DNA from: Trichomonas vaginalis G3
Taxonomy: Eukaryota; Parabasalia; Trichomonadida; Trichomonadidae
NCBI RefSeq assembly: GCF_026262505.1
Contig: NC_067204.1
Location: 10,945,797 to 11,009,796 of the forward strand
Direction of reading: 5' to 3'
DNA length: 64,000 nt
Numbering within the stretch: position 1 is the first letter of the stretch; each line of letters starts with the position of its first letter. Below the pieces are notes generated by a model. That model was not told where the DNA came from and made no database searches. It worked only from the letters and a program-made list of their open reading frames with translations. Made by a program: the position numbers and the translations under genes. This document shows, piece after piece, positions 14,663 through 29,272 of this stretch.

Positions 14663-15242
14663 GGTGGGGTGTGTGACTTTTTTTGTTACGTCTATATATA
14701 GATGAAGGTATATTTTAATGCATCTTCTATATATAGATGATATAAAAATTTTTTCTTACGTTTTTTAAAAGTCATGAATTTGTAAGAAAGTGCGACATTA
14801 TTAAATAAATTAGTAATAAATATTTATATACTAAACACATTAAAAAATTAACATTATTTTTAAAAATAATTTATTTATTTTATCTTACATAAAAGAAGCT
14901 ATATATAGATGATGTCAGATATTCCGCGATTAATTAAACATTGTTTAAATCCTGAATGGGTTAAAGACCTCATAAACGAGTAAAAAATAAACTTCTTACG
15001 CAAAATTAAACGCAAGACTATCAAAAGATAGAGTTGAAAGAGTAATGGTAATGATGAAAAAGAAATTTGATGAGTTCAACATTGAACTTTAAGAAACTAA
15101 TGATTATTTGAATTTATGATATCAATTATCTGATTTATTCTTTCTTCAATCTCTTCTATTCTTTTTGTTAAATCATCTATTTTCATTAATGAGGTGATTC
15201 TTGATTGGGGAATAGATTTCAAACTAACCACTTCTTTTATTT

Positions 15243-16114
15243 GAGATTGGGACAAAGTTGCAATTCGGCACTTTTTGTAAAAAAAATGGGGTCATACTCA
15301 TAATGAATAGAGACTTATAGCCAAGTCTTGATATCATGCAGGGAGAATATACATTGATAAGCAATTATATTTTATAGTAGTAGTATTCAGAAATTCTTAC
15401 AATTTACAATACAATTTTCAAAAATGGATAAAGACTTATAGCCAAGTCTTAATATCATGCAGGGAGAATATACATTGATAAGCAATTATATTTTATAGTA
15501 GTAGTATTCAGAAATTCTTACAATTTACAATACAATTTTCAAAAATGGATAAAGACTAATAGCCAAGTCTTAATATCATGCAGGGAGAATATACATTGAT
15601 AAGCAATTATATTTTATAGTAGTAGTATTCAGAAATTCTTACAATTTACAATACAATTTTCAAAAATAGATAAAGACTAATAGCCAAGTCTTGATATCAT
15701 GCAGGGATAATATACATAGATAAGCAATTATATTTTATAGTAGTAGTATTCAGAAGATCCCGTTCTTCTTCTGTATGGGACACCGCCCTTGACTTCCTGT
15801 TTAATACCAAAAGCAATAAGCTCCTCTAAGTCCACCGAAATCATAAAAATGAAGTGATTTTGAAAAGAGTTAACAAAATTCAAATCACATCAAAAACAAA
15901 AACACATAAAAAATATTTTATTATACTCATTCGAAATTAAAAATAATAAAATTTATATATATTAATTTCATTAAATCAAGGTTAAAAATCTCACCGGAAA
16001 AATAACCTCAGTGTGATAAATTTATCACCGGAAAAATTTACAATAAGGTTAATACCGAAAATATCGAAAAATCAACATTTAAGGTTAATTTAAGAGTATG
16101 CACTTTTGTCACCT
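15243..16114. mobile_element. Non-autonomous, MULE-like insertion
   Basis: The insertion is about 870 bp and is flanked by CTTTTATTT at 15234-15242 and 16119-16127, extendable to 13 bp with one mismatch (ACTTCTTTTATTT and ACTCCTTTTATTT). Comparison with the intact arm defines it. The ends are weakly inverted (GGGACAAAGTTGCAATTC versus GGTGACAAAAGTGCATACTC). A 9-13 bp duplication suggests a Mutator-like element. There is no ORF; four 121-bp tandem repeats fill half of it. Confidence 0.6.
15311..15760. repeat. Four 121-bp tandem repeats
   Basis: Repeat anchors AGACTTATAGCCAAGTCTT or AGACTAATAGCCAAGTCTT lie at 15311, 15432, 15553 and 15674, so the period is exactly 121 bp. Each anchor can form a short AAGACT/AGTCTT stem. 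The fourth copy diverges after about 15750. Confidence 0.95.
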
Positions 16115-16225
16115 ACTCCTTTTATTTTTGAAATTTTGAATCCATCAACTTTAAACATTTTATTCAATTTACATGTTGTCAATTCTTCAAATAATTTTTT
16201 ATTATTAGCATAATAGTCATTAAAT

Positions 16226-17282
16226 TGTTGTAAGACGAGTTACGGAAAGTGAGGTGAACCGAAAAAGTGACACTTATTTGGTCGGATAAATTCCCTATAT
16301 ATTTACTTGTCAAAAAAAATCAGACTTTTTTTGCTTTAAAAAATTTATAAGTTAATTATTGAGAACGAAGGTGAAAGGAAATGGATATCTCTTACCTTTC
16401 ATTCCCTCGAGAAAGTTCAAAAACTTGGGTGCAATCAGAACTGATTGCACCCAAGTTTTTGAACTTTGTATAAGGAATTGTTGGCTATGATGTACTGATC
16501 ATGAATCAGTACATCATAGCCAACAATTCCTTCGCAAACAGCGGGAAACTTTGTCTGAATAGTTTAACATTCAGACAAAGTTTCCGCTGTCAGAGAGGGA
16601 ATGGAAGGGTAAGAGGTATATATTCATAATGTATACCTCTTACCTTTCATTCCCTCGAGAAAGTTCAAAAACTTGGGTGCAATCAGAACTGATTGCACCC
16701 AAGTTTTTGAACTTTGTATAAGGAATTGTTGGCTATGATGTACTGATCATGAATCAGTACATCATAGCCAACAATTCCTTCGCAAACAGCGGGAAACTTT
16801 GTCTGAATAGTTTAACATTCAGACAAAGTTTCCCGCTGTCAGAGAGGGAATGGAAGGGTAAGAGGTATATATTCATAATGTATACCTCTTACCTTTCATT
16901 CCCTCGAGAAAGTTCAAAAACTTGGGTGCAATCAGAACTGATTGCACCCAAGTTTTTGAACTTTGTATAAGGAATTGTTGGCTATGATGTACTGATCATG
17001 AATCAGTACATCATAGCCAACAATTCCTTCGCAAACAGCGGGAAACTTTGTCCGAATAGTTTAACATTCAGACAAAGATGATTTTTTAAATAAGATATAT
17101 ATATATCAGATGATATAAGATGATTTTTTTAAATAAAAATAAAATTTAATTTTTTAATTGTTAAATAAAGAATAGTAAGCTTGACAAGTAATTTAAGTTT
17201 TTGCTTTGTAAAGTTATTTGGTTGGCAAATGCATTGTGTCACTTTTTGTTTGAGTTCACTTTCCGTAATTTGTCTTATGATA
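16226..17282. mobile_element. Terminal-repeat element carrying cloverleaf DNA units
   Basis: The element is 1057 bp and is flanked by AAAT duplications at 16222-16225 and 17283-17286, defined against the intact right-arm gene. The terminal inverted repeats are about 48 bp and imperfect, sharing TTACGGAAAGTGA near the ends and AAAAAGTGACAC inside. It has no ORF of note. The interior is the cloverleaf array at 16386-17078. The superfamily is not recognised. Confidence 0.7.
16386..17078. repeat. Tandem 249-bp units, each a three-armed DNA cloverleaf
   Basis: There are about 2.8 copies, with anchor CTCGAGAAAG at 16406, 16654 and 16903. In copy two, 16632-16656 pairs with 16844-16869 (outer stem, one bulge). 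Inside are three perfect hairpins: 16662-16686 with 16689-16713 (25 bp, loop AA), 16721-16747 with 16753-16779 (27 bp, 5-nt loop) and 16787-16808 with 16817-16838 (22 bp, 8-nt loop). Copy one lacks a C in the third hairpin, and copy three ends after it begins. Function unknown. Confidence 0.95.
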
Positions 17283-17450
17283 AAATTCTTCAACAGATGA
17301 AAAAATTTTTATTTCAGTAATTGGTTTAACAACGTTTATTTTTTGTTGAACATTTTCACTTATTTCTTCCTCCTCTGTTTCATTTATTTTTAAAATCGGT
17401 TTCATTTATCATTAAATAAAAATTAGAATATAAGTGATGAAATATATTTT

Positions 17451-18060
17451 TGAAGAACTGAAGGTGTCACTACGTCACCATGTGTCACTCGGTTAATTAA
17501 CTTCTCTGAAAAAATGAGACAACATGACATTTTGACAACAGTCCTGGAAATAAATTTTATCGTTAATGTTTTGTCAAACATGAGCGTATATCCTTTGTCA
17601 AACATGAACGTAAACACTTTGTCAAACATGAGACAACATGACATTTTGACAACACAGCAGGATTAATGAGGAAGGCACTTATGAATTATTTTTGAAGAAC
17701 TGAAGGTGTCACTACGTCACCATGTGTCACTCGGTTAATTAACTTCTCTGAAAAAATGAGACAACATGACATTTTGACAACAGTCCTGGAAATAAATTTT
17801 ATCGTTAATGTTTTGTCAAACATGAGCGTATATCCTTTGTCAAACATGAACGTAAACACTTTGTCAAACATGAGACAACATGACATTTTGACAACACAGC
17901 AGGATTAATGAGGAAGGCACTTATGAATTATTTTTGAAGAACTGAAGGTGTCACTACGTCACCATGTGTCACTCGGTTAATTAACTTCTCTGAAAAAATG
18001 AGACAACATGACATTTTGACAACAGTCCTGGAAATAAATTTTATCGTTAATGTTTTGTCA
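17451..18060. repeat. 242-bp tandem repeats
   Basis: TGAAGAACTGAAGGTGTCAC recurs at 17451, 17693 and 17935 (third copy partial). Each full unit ends in TTTGTCAAACATGAACGTAA iterons. An inverted single copy at about 18530-18770 belongs to the right arm. Confidence 0.95.
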
Positions 18061-18206
18061 TGATTTCATCGTTAATGCTTTGTCATGACTTCATCGTAAA
18101 CACTTTGTCAAACATGAACGTAAACACTTCATCAAAACTAAACGTAAACACTTCATCGAAACTAAACGTAAACACTTTGTCATGACTTCATCGTAAATGT
18201 TTTGTC

Positions 18207-18506
18207 ATGATTTCTTCGTAATGAGCATAAATGACTAAAAATTATTTCTGCAGTTCATCCGCTACATTATTAACTAATTAACTTCAGACATAAAATATAT
18301 TTAGTTATGATTTCTTCGTAATGAGCATAAATGACTAAAAATTATTTCTGCAGTTCATCCGCTACATTATTAACTAATTAACTTCAGACATAAAATATAT
18401 TTAGTTATGATTTCTTCGTAATGAGCATAAATGACTAAAAATTATTTCTGCAGTTCATCCGCTACATTATTAACTAATTAACTTCAGACATAAAATATAT
18501 TTAGTT
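18207..18506. repeat. Three 100-bp tandem repeats at the palindrome centre
   Basis: ATGATTTCTTCGTAATGAGC begins at 18207, 18307 and 18407. The units include CTGCAGTTCATCCGCTACAT. They form the spacer between the inverted arms. Confidence 0.95.
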
Positions 18507-18811
18507 ACGATGAAGTCATGACAAAGTGTTTACGTTTAGTTTTGATGAAGTGTTTACGTTTAGTTTTGATGAAGTGTTTACGTTCATGTTTGACAAAGTG
18601 TTTACGATGAAGTCATGACAAAGCATTAACGATGAAATCATGACAAAACATTAACGATAAAATTTATTTCCAGGACTGTTGTCAAAATGTCATGTTGTCT
18701 CATTTTTTCAGAGAAGTTAATTAACCGAGTGACACATGGTGACGTAGTGACACCTTCAGTTCTTCAAAAATATATTTCATCACTTATATTCTAATTTTTA
18801 TTTAATGATAA

Positions 18812-19174
18812 ATGAAACCGATTTTAAAAATAAATGAAACAGAGGAGGAAGAAATAAGTGAAAATGTTCAACAAAAAATAAACGTTGTTAAACCAATTAC
18901 TGAAATAAAAATTTTTTCATCTGTTGAAGAATTTAATGACTATTATGCTAATAATAAAAAATTATTTGAAGAATTGACAACATGTAAATTGAATAAAATG
19001 TTTAAAGTTGATGGATTCAAAATTTCAAAAATAAAAGGAGTGGTTAGTTTGAAATCTATTCCCCAATCAAGAATCACCTCATTAATGAAAATAGATGATT
19101 TAACAAAAAGAATAGAAGAGATTGAAGAAAGAATAAATCAGATAATTGATATCATAAATTCAAATAATCATTAG
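18812..19174 (+). CDS. Small acidic coiled-coil protein of the palindromic element
   Basis: An intact 120-residue frame (MKPILKINETEEEE...). It has an acidic N-terminus, a central block FSSVEEFNDYYANNKKLFEE and a C-terminal coiled coil (DDLTKRIEEIEERINQIIDIIN) suited to oligomerisation. The inverted counterpart at 15097-17405 is disrupted. No family is recognised. Retention of an open frame in one arm suggests it is, or recently was, used by the element. Confidence 0.55.
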   Translation: MKPILKINETEEEEISENVQQKINVVKPITEIKIFSSVEEFNDYYANNKKLFEELTTCKLNKMFKVDGFKISKIKGVVSLKSIPQSRITSLMKIDDLTKRIEEIEERINQIIDIINSNNH

Positions 19175-19623
19175 TTTCTTAAAGTTCAATGTTGAACTCA
19201 TCAAATTTCTTTTTCATCATTACCATTACTCTTTCAACTCTATCTTTTGATAGTCTTGCGTTTAATTTTGCGTAAGAAGTTTATTTTTTACTCGTTTATG
19301 AGGTCTTTAACCCATTCAGGATTTAAACAATGTTTAATTAATCGCGGAATATCTGACATCATCTATATATAGCTTCTTTTATGTAAGATAAAATAAATAA
19401 ATTATTTTTAAAAATAATGTTAATTTTTTAATGTGTTTAGTATATAAATATTTATTACTAATTTATTTAATAATGTCGCACTTTCTTACAAATTCATGAC
19501 TTTTAAAAAACGTAAGAAAAAATTTTTATATCATCTATATATAGAAGATGCATTAAAATATACCTTCATCTATATATAGACGTAACAAAAAAAGTCACAC
19601 ACCCCGCCCTATCCTACTACTAA

Positions 19624-28716: not shown

Positions 28717-29272
28717 AATAAATATGATTTAATATACCTCAGTTATTTTCATTAATTAGACTATATACTGCAAAAGCAACATGGATTCTCTATTCCAAAT
28801 TTCGAAATTAATTTTGAAATTTTGATCAACGTTGTAAATATCTAAAACCATAAAAACAACTTTATAGATAAAGAATATTAATTAGGTTTTTACTTCTTGG
28901 CTTGAAAGAATAAAAATATTATAGATTTTTTTCAAATTCAAAGGGATATTGCTTTTACAAGAAAGTTTATAGATGTAAATAGTGCAAATAACTATTAATG
29001 AAGCTGCATTTTGTCAAATGCAAGAATAAATTTCGAATTTATGAGGAAAATGTATTTCCTGAATATAATCCTCTTTCGCATCAAAGAGAATTACATATAC
29101 CTTGAATAATAACTTCTGATTTAATGCTATTCCAATAGTCAAAATAATATATGCATCAGAAAGTTAAAATTCAAGTAAATTAGAATTATCTAGGTCATGG
29201 TAAATGTTCAATTAACTGTCTGTAAGTTTTCGAGTAAGTAAGACTATTTTGTGTTATTATTTTTGGATTTTT
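28717..29272. other. Convergent intergenic spacer
   Basis: About 550 bp, AT-rich, no recognised feature. Confidence 0.5.

Follow-up and report, generated by a model that had tools for sequence, protein, structure and literature searches.

Transposons of the IS481EU superfamily, as set out in the main text of Kojima and Bao (2023; PMC10045372), carry a single DDD/E transposase with an integrase core, are bounded by terminal inverted repeats (TIRs) and include both autonomous and non-autonomous families. Their termini follow the pattern TNT..AYA, and they are flanked by target site duplications (TSDs) of about 4, 15 or 25 bp, mostly 4 bp. The words hairpin, palindrome, tandem and cruciform are absent from that main text, and in the open-licence literature no title or abstract opening was found that describes the hairpin module analysed here.

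Palindromes linked to transposases are described in other systems. Bacterial REP/BIME sequences are alternating palindromes present in high copy number and linked to a transposase (PMC2817692), each REP being 20-40 bp long (PMC3733652). In piggyBac and piggyBat (PMC11707139) and in Hermes (PMC10368747), palindromic or repeated sites lie inside the transposon ends; according to the available text of these reports, palindromes near the ends can bind transposase dimers and extra subterminal sites can limit activity. Template switching between the arms of an inverted repeat is reported to homogenise the arms and invert the spacers (PMC8604942), and by itself it can create and keep compensatory changes, the stems staying paired (PMC8794818).

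The window, the whole 64,000-nucleotide stretch of Trichomonas vaginalis G3 DNA analysed here (C2:10945797-11009796), belongs to an assembly of 180.85 Mb in 86 contigs, in which the searches were made. Its forward strand holds at 16226..17282 a non-autonomous IS481EU-type copy of 1057 bp, assigned to a family termed A, with the ends TGTTGT..ATGATA, a left TIR at 16226..16252 (forward strand), a right TIR at 17256..17282 (reverse strand) and a 4-bp TSD. The latter, AAAT, was located at 16222..16225 and 17283..17286 by comparison of the ends; the empty insertion site can be seen in the uninterrupted mirror arm (18927-19041) of a surrounding inverted repeat. TTACGGAAAGTGA is found exactly at both ends of the element, whose true termini lie 14 bp farther out on each side. 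The sequence-only reading had placed the tandem array inside a terminal-repeat element, and this proved correct: the array begins about 150 bp inside an integrated element bounded by TIRs and a TSD. The transposase gene of full-length relatives is absent between the array and the right subterminal region (17078..17255, forward strand), and comparison shows the element to be a deletion derivative of an IS481EU transposon, without its gene.

The host locus is a very large, near-perfect inverted repeat (14771..19500; arms 14771-15242/19029-19500, 16115-16229/18927-19041 and 17280-17576/18641-18937) with nested 242- and 100-bp tandem repeats. It probably represents putative Maverick terminal repeats lying end to end, and is possibly the product of two Mavericks joined in this way. 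The same arm carries a second insertion, of about 876 bp at 15235-16110, which contains a 121-bp tandem repeat (15302-15755, 3.8 copies).

Tandem Repeats Finder defines the array at 16380..17077 (forward strand) as 2.8 copies of a 249-bp unit with 99% match, in agreement with the earlier estimate, and the array is without an open gene, as had been supposed. Hairpin search and covariance models resolve each unit into four hairpins of two types, in the order H1 (type I), H2 (type II), H3 (type I) and H4 (type II). H1 has a 27-bp stem and a 2-nt loop, AA (16412..16467, with further copies at 16660-16715 and 16909-16964); H2 has a 28-bp stem and a 5-nt loop, CATGA (16472..16532, then 16720-16780 and 16969-17029); H3 has a 23-bp stem and an 8-nt loop, AGTTTAAC. 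The first H3 copy (16538..16590) is one base short relative to the intact copy at 16786-16839, and the last (17043-17077) is incomplete. H4 is an imperfect hairpin of about 26 bp (16595..16656, second copy 16844-16905), the loop of which measures 3-11 nt according to the pairing chosen. Three hairpins of 25, 27 and 22 bp with loops of 2, 5 and 8 nt had been described beforehand; the loops stand, the lengths were close to those measured here, and H4 has to be added. Folded as DNA, 16386-17078 reaches -292.3 kcal/mol, where 20 dinucleotide shuffles reach -67.9 +/- 4.8 (z -46.6), and nine hairpins with a score of at least 14 occur in the window, against none in five mononucleotide shuffles of it.

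The same bases had been drawn as a three-armed cloverleaf closed by an outer stem (16632-16656 with 16844-16869). This stem is made from two successive H4 copies, the right arm of the first pairing with the left arm of the second. Since each of these arms also pairs with its own near neighbour, a row of four hairpins (I-II-I-II) is the simpler register; two types of hairpin mostly take turns along the row, and the stem around them can be dispensed with. A cloverleaf cannot form in the family A element at locus L039, which has a single hairpin pair (H1+H2), or in two relatives with two or three hairpins, L055 (lineage B2) and L043 (lineage K). These observations bear on the suggestion that the array is a replication or telomere-like hairpin end, or a resolvase target. 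Parvovirus termini adopt a stable multi-hairpin DNA fold in which hairpin parts flip, and the array resembles them in its very stable fold and in the loop flips described below. It differs from them, however, in being internal to an element with the TIRs and 4-bp TSDs of a DDE transposon, and in relatives a lone pair is found; we regard a hairpin end or resolvase target as highly improbable.

Family A is represented by 18 distinct two-ended copies, L041-L044 being counted once on account of their shared flanks and the one-ended or cut loci (L002/L019, L024, L026, L032 and L035) being left out. The ends TGTTGT..ATGATA are present in 18/18 of these, which were selected by these ends with at most 3 mismatches. 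Exact 4-bp TSDs flank 15 of the 18; the exceptions are L025 (5 bp), L018 (an offset 3-bp match) and L037 (none). Full-length copies, found at L041-L044 and 2310-2312 bp long, carry the gene for a 432-aa transposase with an integrase core; the protein is matched full length and stop-free at 16 or more places in the genome among the matches listed (E 1.8e-294). The array adjoins the left end of the element, 3' of this gene. At L041-L044, near C4:17.1 Mb, family A and K elements have been duplicated together with the same flanks, and K matches there recur at about 6.3 kb or more.

The ends of family A match the TNT..AYA signature of IS481EU, the duplications are mostly of 4 bp in A and of 16 bp for a family B insert in L047, and a single transposase with an rve core (PF00665) is recognised in the 432-aa product of A (E = 8e-10), in a family B fragment (5.1e-15) and in K (4.5e-18). 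By these features the element appears to be a good fit to the described superfamily, the placement resting on termini, duplications and protein because no tree underlies the assignment. The earlier view that no described element has this design therefore falls for the element itself; the hairpin module seen here, with its covarying arms and its place 3' of the gene, has no mention in the main text of PMC10045372. A protein search with the K transposase returned nine proteins, one 99% identical and eight 33-37% identical, one of the eight being annotated as a DDE-type integrase from a Firmicutes bin.

Fetched family A loci contain from 1 to 14 units each, partial units included, and a run of 19 units lies at C2:13755695-13760460 among the matches listed. 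A genome search with the unit gave at least 514 matches (40/744 candidates scored), a count that may include both strands of a palindromic unit; other genome searches scored 40/93, 40/94 and 40/203 candidates, so that copy numbers are lower bounds. Because unit copy number differs among loci with differing flanks and TSDs, an assembly artefact is unlikely. One or more H1+H2 (I+II) pairs are kept in all 18 two-ended copies, which does little to show that the pair is required in cis, because the queries lay at or beside the array and deletion events were few. Locus L024 has a right end with no array in the stretch fetched leftward. At L039:8221-8985 units of about 122 bp are repeated in tandem, and every one of them has a hairpin with 13-bp arms and unrelated sequence.

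Type I hairpins have a core of about AAACTTTG and type II hairpins one of about TATGAGGTAYTGAT. Across lineages, the likeness of H1 to H3 exceeds the 95th percentile of shuffles in 14/20 half-hairpin comparisons and that of H2 to H4 in 11/32, against 15/168 for comparisons across types. The two types alternate throughout what was examined of A, B, C, D, G, K, B2 and M, and alternation is broken twice in the E stretch of L049, where type II follows type II. A hairpin at L050:1376-1440 has H2-like outer arms and an H4-like inner stem, as if by symmetric recombination between hairpins.

Alignments were made for each hairpin class, with omission of the C-type H1 of L030 (a loop flip of that of L049) and of the window H4 (one base short, the L047 copy taking its place). 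Both sides have changed in 12/25 base pairs of H1, 16/24 of H2, 11/25 of H3 and 15/30 of H4, and the cells remain paired at 100, 90.9, 96.9 and 97.9%, respectively. In every class, 0/500 shuffles reached the observed both-side changes, paired cells or covariation score. Slid registers pair at most 58.2% of cells, a comparison that favours register 0 as the structures were read from the same sequences. The number of further pair types was reached by 7, 47, 0 and 0 of 500 shuffles for H1 to H4, a weak excess for H1 and H2.

Over lineages, both sides have changed in 17/28 pairs of type I (98.5% of cells paired) and 19/29 pairs of type II (94.3% paired), 36/57 in all, and 0/500 shuffles reach these values for either type; further pair types are reached by 4/500 shuffles (type I) and 1/500 (type II). 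These alignments omit G_I2, with its longer stem, H3 of A_L041, the C_H1 variants of L050 and L030 and one C_H4. The lineages are not independent, since A and B have one common module and the type I hairpins of G, K and B2 are nearly alike; kinship is ignored by the shuffles. The sequence-only reading would have been overturned by arms that drift and lose their pairing; in related copies the arms have drifted and pairing is preserved. To judge from the alignments, the arms are shown to covary over nearly their full length and the hairpins to persist. As template switching can keep stems paired, such covariation shows persistence and not by itself selection.

Among young family A copies, counted without L042-L044, whose flanks are those of L041, and without arms of other than the commonest length (H1 4/76, H2 0/71, H3 6/63, H4 8/49), fully Watson-Crick stems are found in 66/72 H1, 47/71 H2, 54/57 H3 and 0/41 H4 hairpins; a one-sided C·A mismatch persists in 24/71 H2 copies. 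The covariance models also match hairpins outside their training set, in L051 (505-559), L055, L057 and L043 (5735-5794). Two further matches lie outside known arrays, at L039:2-61 (30 bits) and L007:2038-2079 (30.6 bits), and are perhaps decayed copies of the module; a weak match occurs in the window at 29101-29174 (E 0.047). No match was obtained in L045, L046, L048, L052, L053, L054 or L056.

Hairpins are found 3' of the gene in seven of ten IS481EU-like lineages (A, B, C/D, G, K, B2 and M), a count in which the membership of M, L054 and L056 is putative, the last two being short fragments. L047 has a nested family B insert with a different body and TIR and a 16-bp duplication, which carries the family A unit, and in L007 an array lies 3' of a B transposase fragment. 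The units of A and B are near-identical despite different bodies and TIRs. Unit orientation relative to the gene is opposite in the two families, the array being 3' in both. Family B transposases recur about every 4.9 kb at C2:10379266-10423058 and C2:11057682-11092033, as if within a tandem segment.

More diverged units are also found. The C unit has at least 239 genome matches (40/928 candidates scored), and in L049 and L050 C units are followed by further diverged units, D, E and F. In L050 the array lies next to, and 3' of, a transposase C-terminus that shares 33% identity with the A protein over 85 columns (E 2e-8 in a single comparison). K has a core 39% identical to A over 116 aa, followed by hairpins II, I, II. 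In L030 a family A copy (959-1830) is inserted in the loop of an H4 hairpin of a diverged C-type unit; from this one case, palindromes might be preferred insertion targets.

Seven stretches behind transposase matches (L051-L057) were chosen before their sequence was known. Three of them have hairpins: L051 (G), with a transposase 33% identical to A and hairpins II, I, II, I downstream; L055 (B2), 67% identical to B, where a transposon end lies behind the hairpins; and L057 (M), 43% identical to A. No module hairpins were seen in L052, L053, L054 or L056 (501 bp). L052 and L053 encode integrases 40-44% identical to the family A transposase, for which we use a putative Maverick-like label; hairpins beside such integrases were considered and set aside, as L052 has one plain hairpin with 16-bp arms, L053 has none and neither gave a model match. 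In family S, which is more closely related to A than any other family (62% aa identity), the loci L045, L046 and L048 lack module hairpins, and those in L047, a family S locus, come with the nested B insert. The module is thus dispensable for some such transposons, and its absence from family S argues against an absolute need, as far as these loci can tell.

The position of the array downstream of the gene, the strong conservation of pairing and stems of about 23-33 bp with short loops, which look like hairpin RNA precursors, would suit an element acting as RNA, transcribed as part of a 3' UTR, as a terminator or as short hairpin RNAs yielding small RNAs, with the transposon as their target or under their protection. 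RNA stems are expected to tolerate G·U. Some G·U pairs do occur in type II stems, but there are none in the type I lineage alignment, and among the 638 cells of the class alignments 603 are Watson-Crick, 11 G·T, 14 A·C and 10 other. Because G·T is in no excess over A·C and the unit stands in opposite orientations to the gene in A and B, the structured RNA that had been suggested is disfavoured. Against 259 kb of examined sequence with arrays masked, arm matches did not exceed 13 nt, which is also what shuffled arms gave, and there were no Rfam matches in the window at gathering scores. Arms as precursors of small RNAs directed against the element or nearby sequence, and arms as copies of the TIR, were rejected by the same comparison. 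A role as RNA is, on balance, improbable. Since the arms match TIRs, gene and other examined sequence no better than chance, a site common to arms and TIRs is likewise unsupported. The exact H2 pattern was found at no place in viral contigs, which is little informative.

The loops provide a second line of evidence. In H1 the loop is AA in 24 cases and TT in 56, although two point changes could mimic an inversion; the H2 loop is inverted in 3/76 cases, all in L040, and inverted loops number 0/64 in H3 and 0/51 in H4, with one unclassified loop each. The duplicate loci L042-L044 and a single C-type hairpin from L030 are part of these tallies. The C-type H1 hairpins of L030 and L049 are exact reverses of each other. 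Inverted loops, together with G·T pairs as rare as A·C pairs, point to maintenance of the arms as DNA, for which template switching from arm to arm is the probable means, and a DNA-level palindrome module is likely. Homogenised arms and inverted spacers are what has been described for template-switched inverted repeats (PMC8604942, PMC8794818); as far as the available text of those reports goes, they concern yeast coding genes and RNA genes, whereas here it is a transposon module that would be affected.

Template switching also raises the question of whether the hairpins matter to the transposon at all. Palindromic minisatellites might have been captured by IS481EU-type transposons, kept perfect by template switching alone and spread by hitchhiking and slippage, without function for their carriers. 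Near-identical units in A and B, unit numbers from 1 to 14 with a run of 19, the loop inversions, the empty family S and arms that match nothing else in the examined sequence would all be expected of such a passenger. Set against this, seven lineages have the same two types at the same 3' place with their inner cores conserved, although the transposase of one is just 33% identical to that of A; place, types and cores argue for selection. The I+II pair kept by every two-ended A copy counts on the same side, with the reservation already given. We consider a functionless satellite unlikely, though a serious contender.

The account we favour, with reasonable rather than high confidence, is that the array is a tandem-amplified, two-hairpin DNA module acting in cis in IS481EU-type transposons, situated past the transposase stop codon and short of the closer end of the transposon. 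The best reading of its distribution is of a module held in common by families and amplified like a satellite. Its role would lie in synapsis or regulation, unless it is a mere passenger or acts as RNA. Under the favoured account, the arms would be kept complementary at the DNA level, largely through inter-arm template switching during replication, by which loops would become inverted, and tandem growth would come from slippage or unequal exchange. The module would be retained since its palindromes act in cis in the life of the transposon; they would most likely serve as an internal site favouring or restraining synapsis, and this site may bind a dimeric transposase or a host protein, or may be an extruded hairpin. 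The palindromic sites of piggyBac, piggyBat and Hermes offer a parallel in their reported dimer binding and limiting effect; theirs are short fixed motifs in the text available, whereas here there are dyads of 23-33 bp in which sequence shifts, symmetry is kept and binding is putative.

A more specific proposal, which we put forward tentatively as possible, is that the two-type hairpin pair is a DNA-structure element in cis, of which the extruded or symmetric hairpins and not a fixed sequence are recognised, and which passes from family to family and undergoes amplification; the design would be the eukaryotic equivalent of REP/BIME, with a DDE transposase at its centre. The resemblance to REP/BIME is by appearance, in alternating high-copy palindromes linked to a transposase; the present stems are longer, and are linked to a DDE element in a eukaryote. 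Membership of REP/BIME itself was rejected, as no Y1 HUH transposase was recognised in the genome: Y1_Tnp (PF01797) gave no matches in the T. vaginalis genome, 5/14 control genomes being positive.

The array is a real, unusual component of a known kind of transposon, and the hairpin module is a little-noticed and possibly important transposon part. To our knowledge, long dyads that change in sequence and keep their symmetry have rarely been described in transposons. The module shows that parts are held in common between transposon families, and it may explain some of the high-copy unclassified repeats of the 181-Mb genome of this parasite. If the module acts in cis, IS481EU would provide a system in which the shape of DNA and not its sequence is under selection; if it does not, it would provide one in which perfect hairpins endure over the long term through mutation alone. 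These two forms of upkeep can be distinguished.
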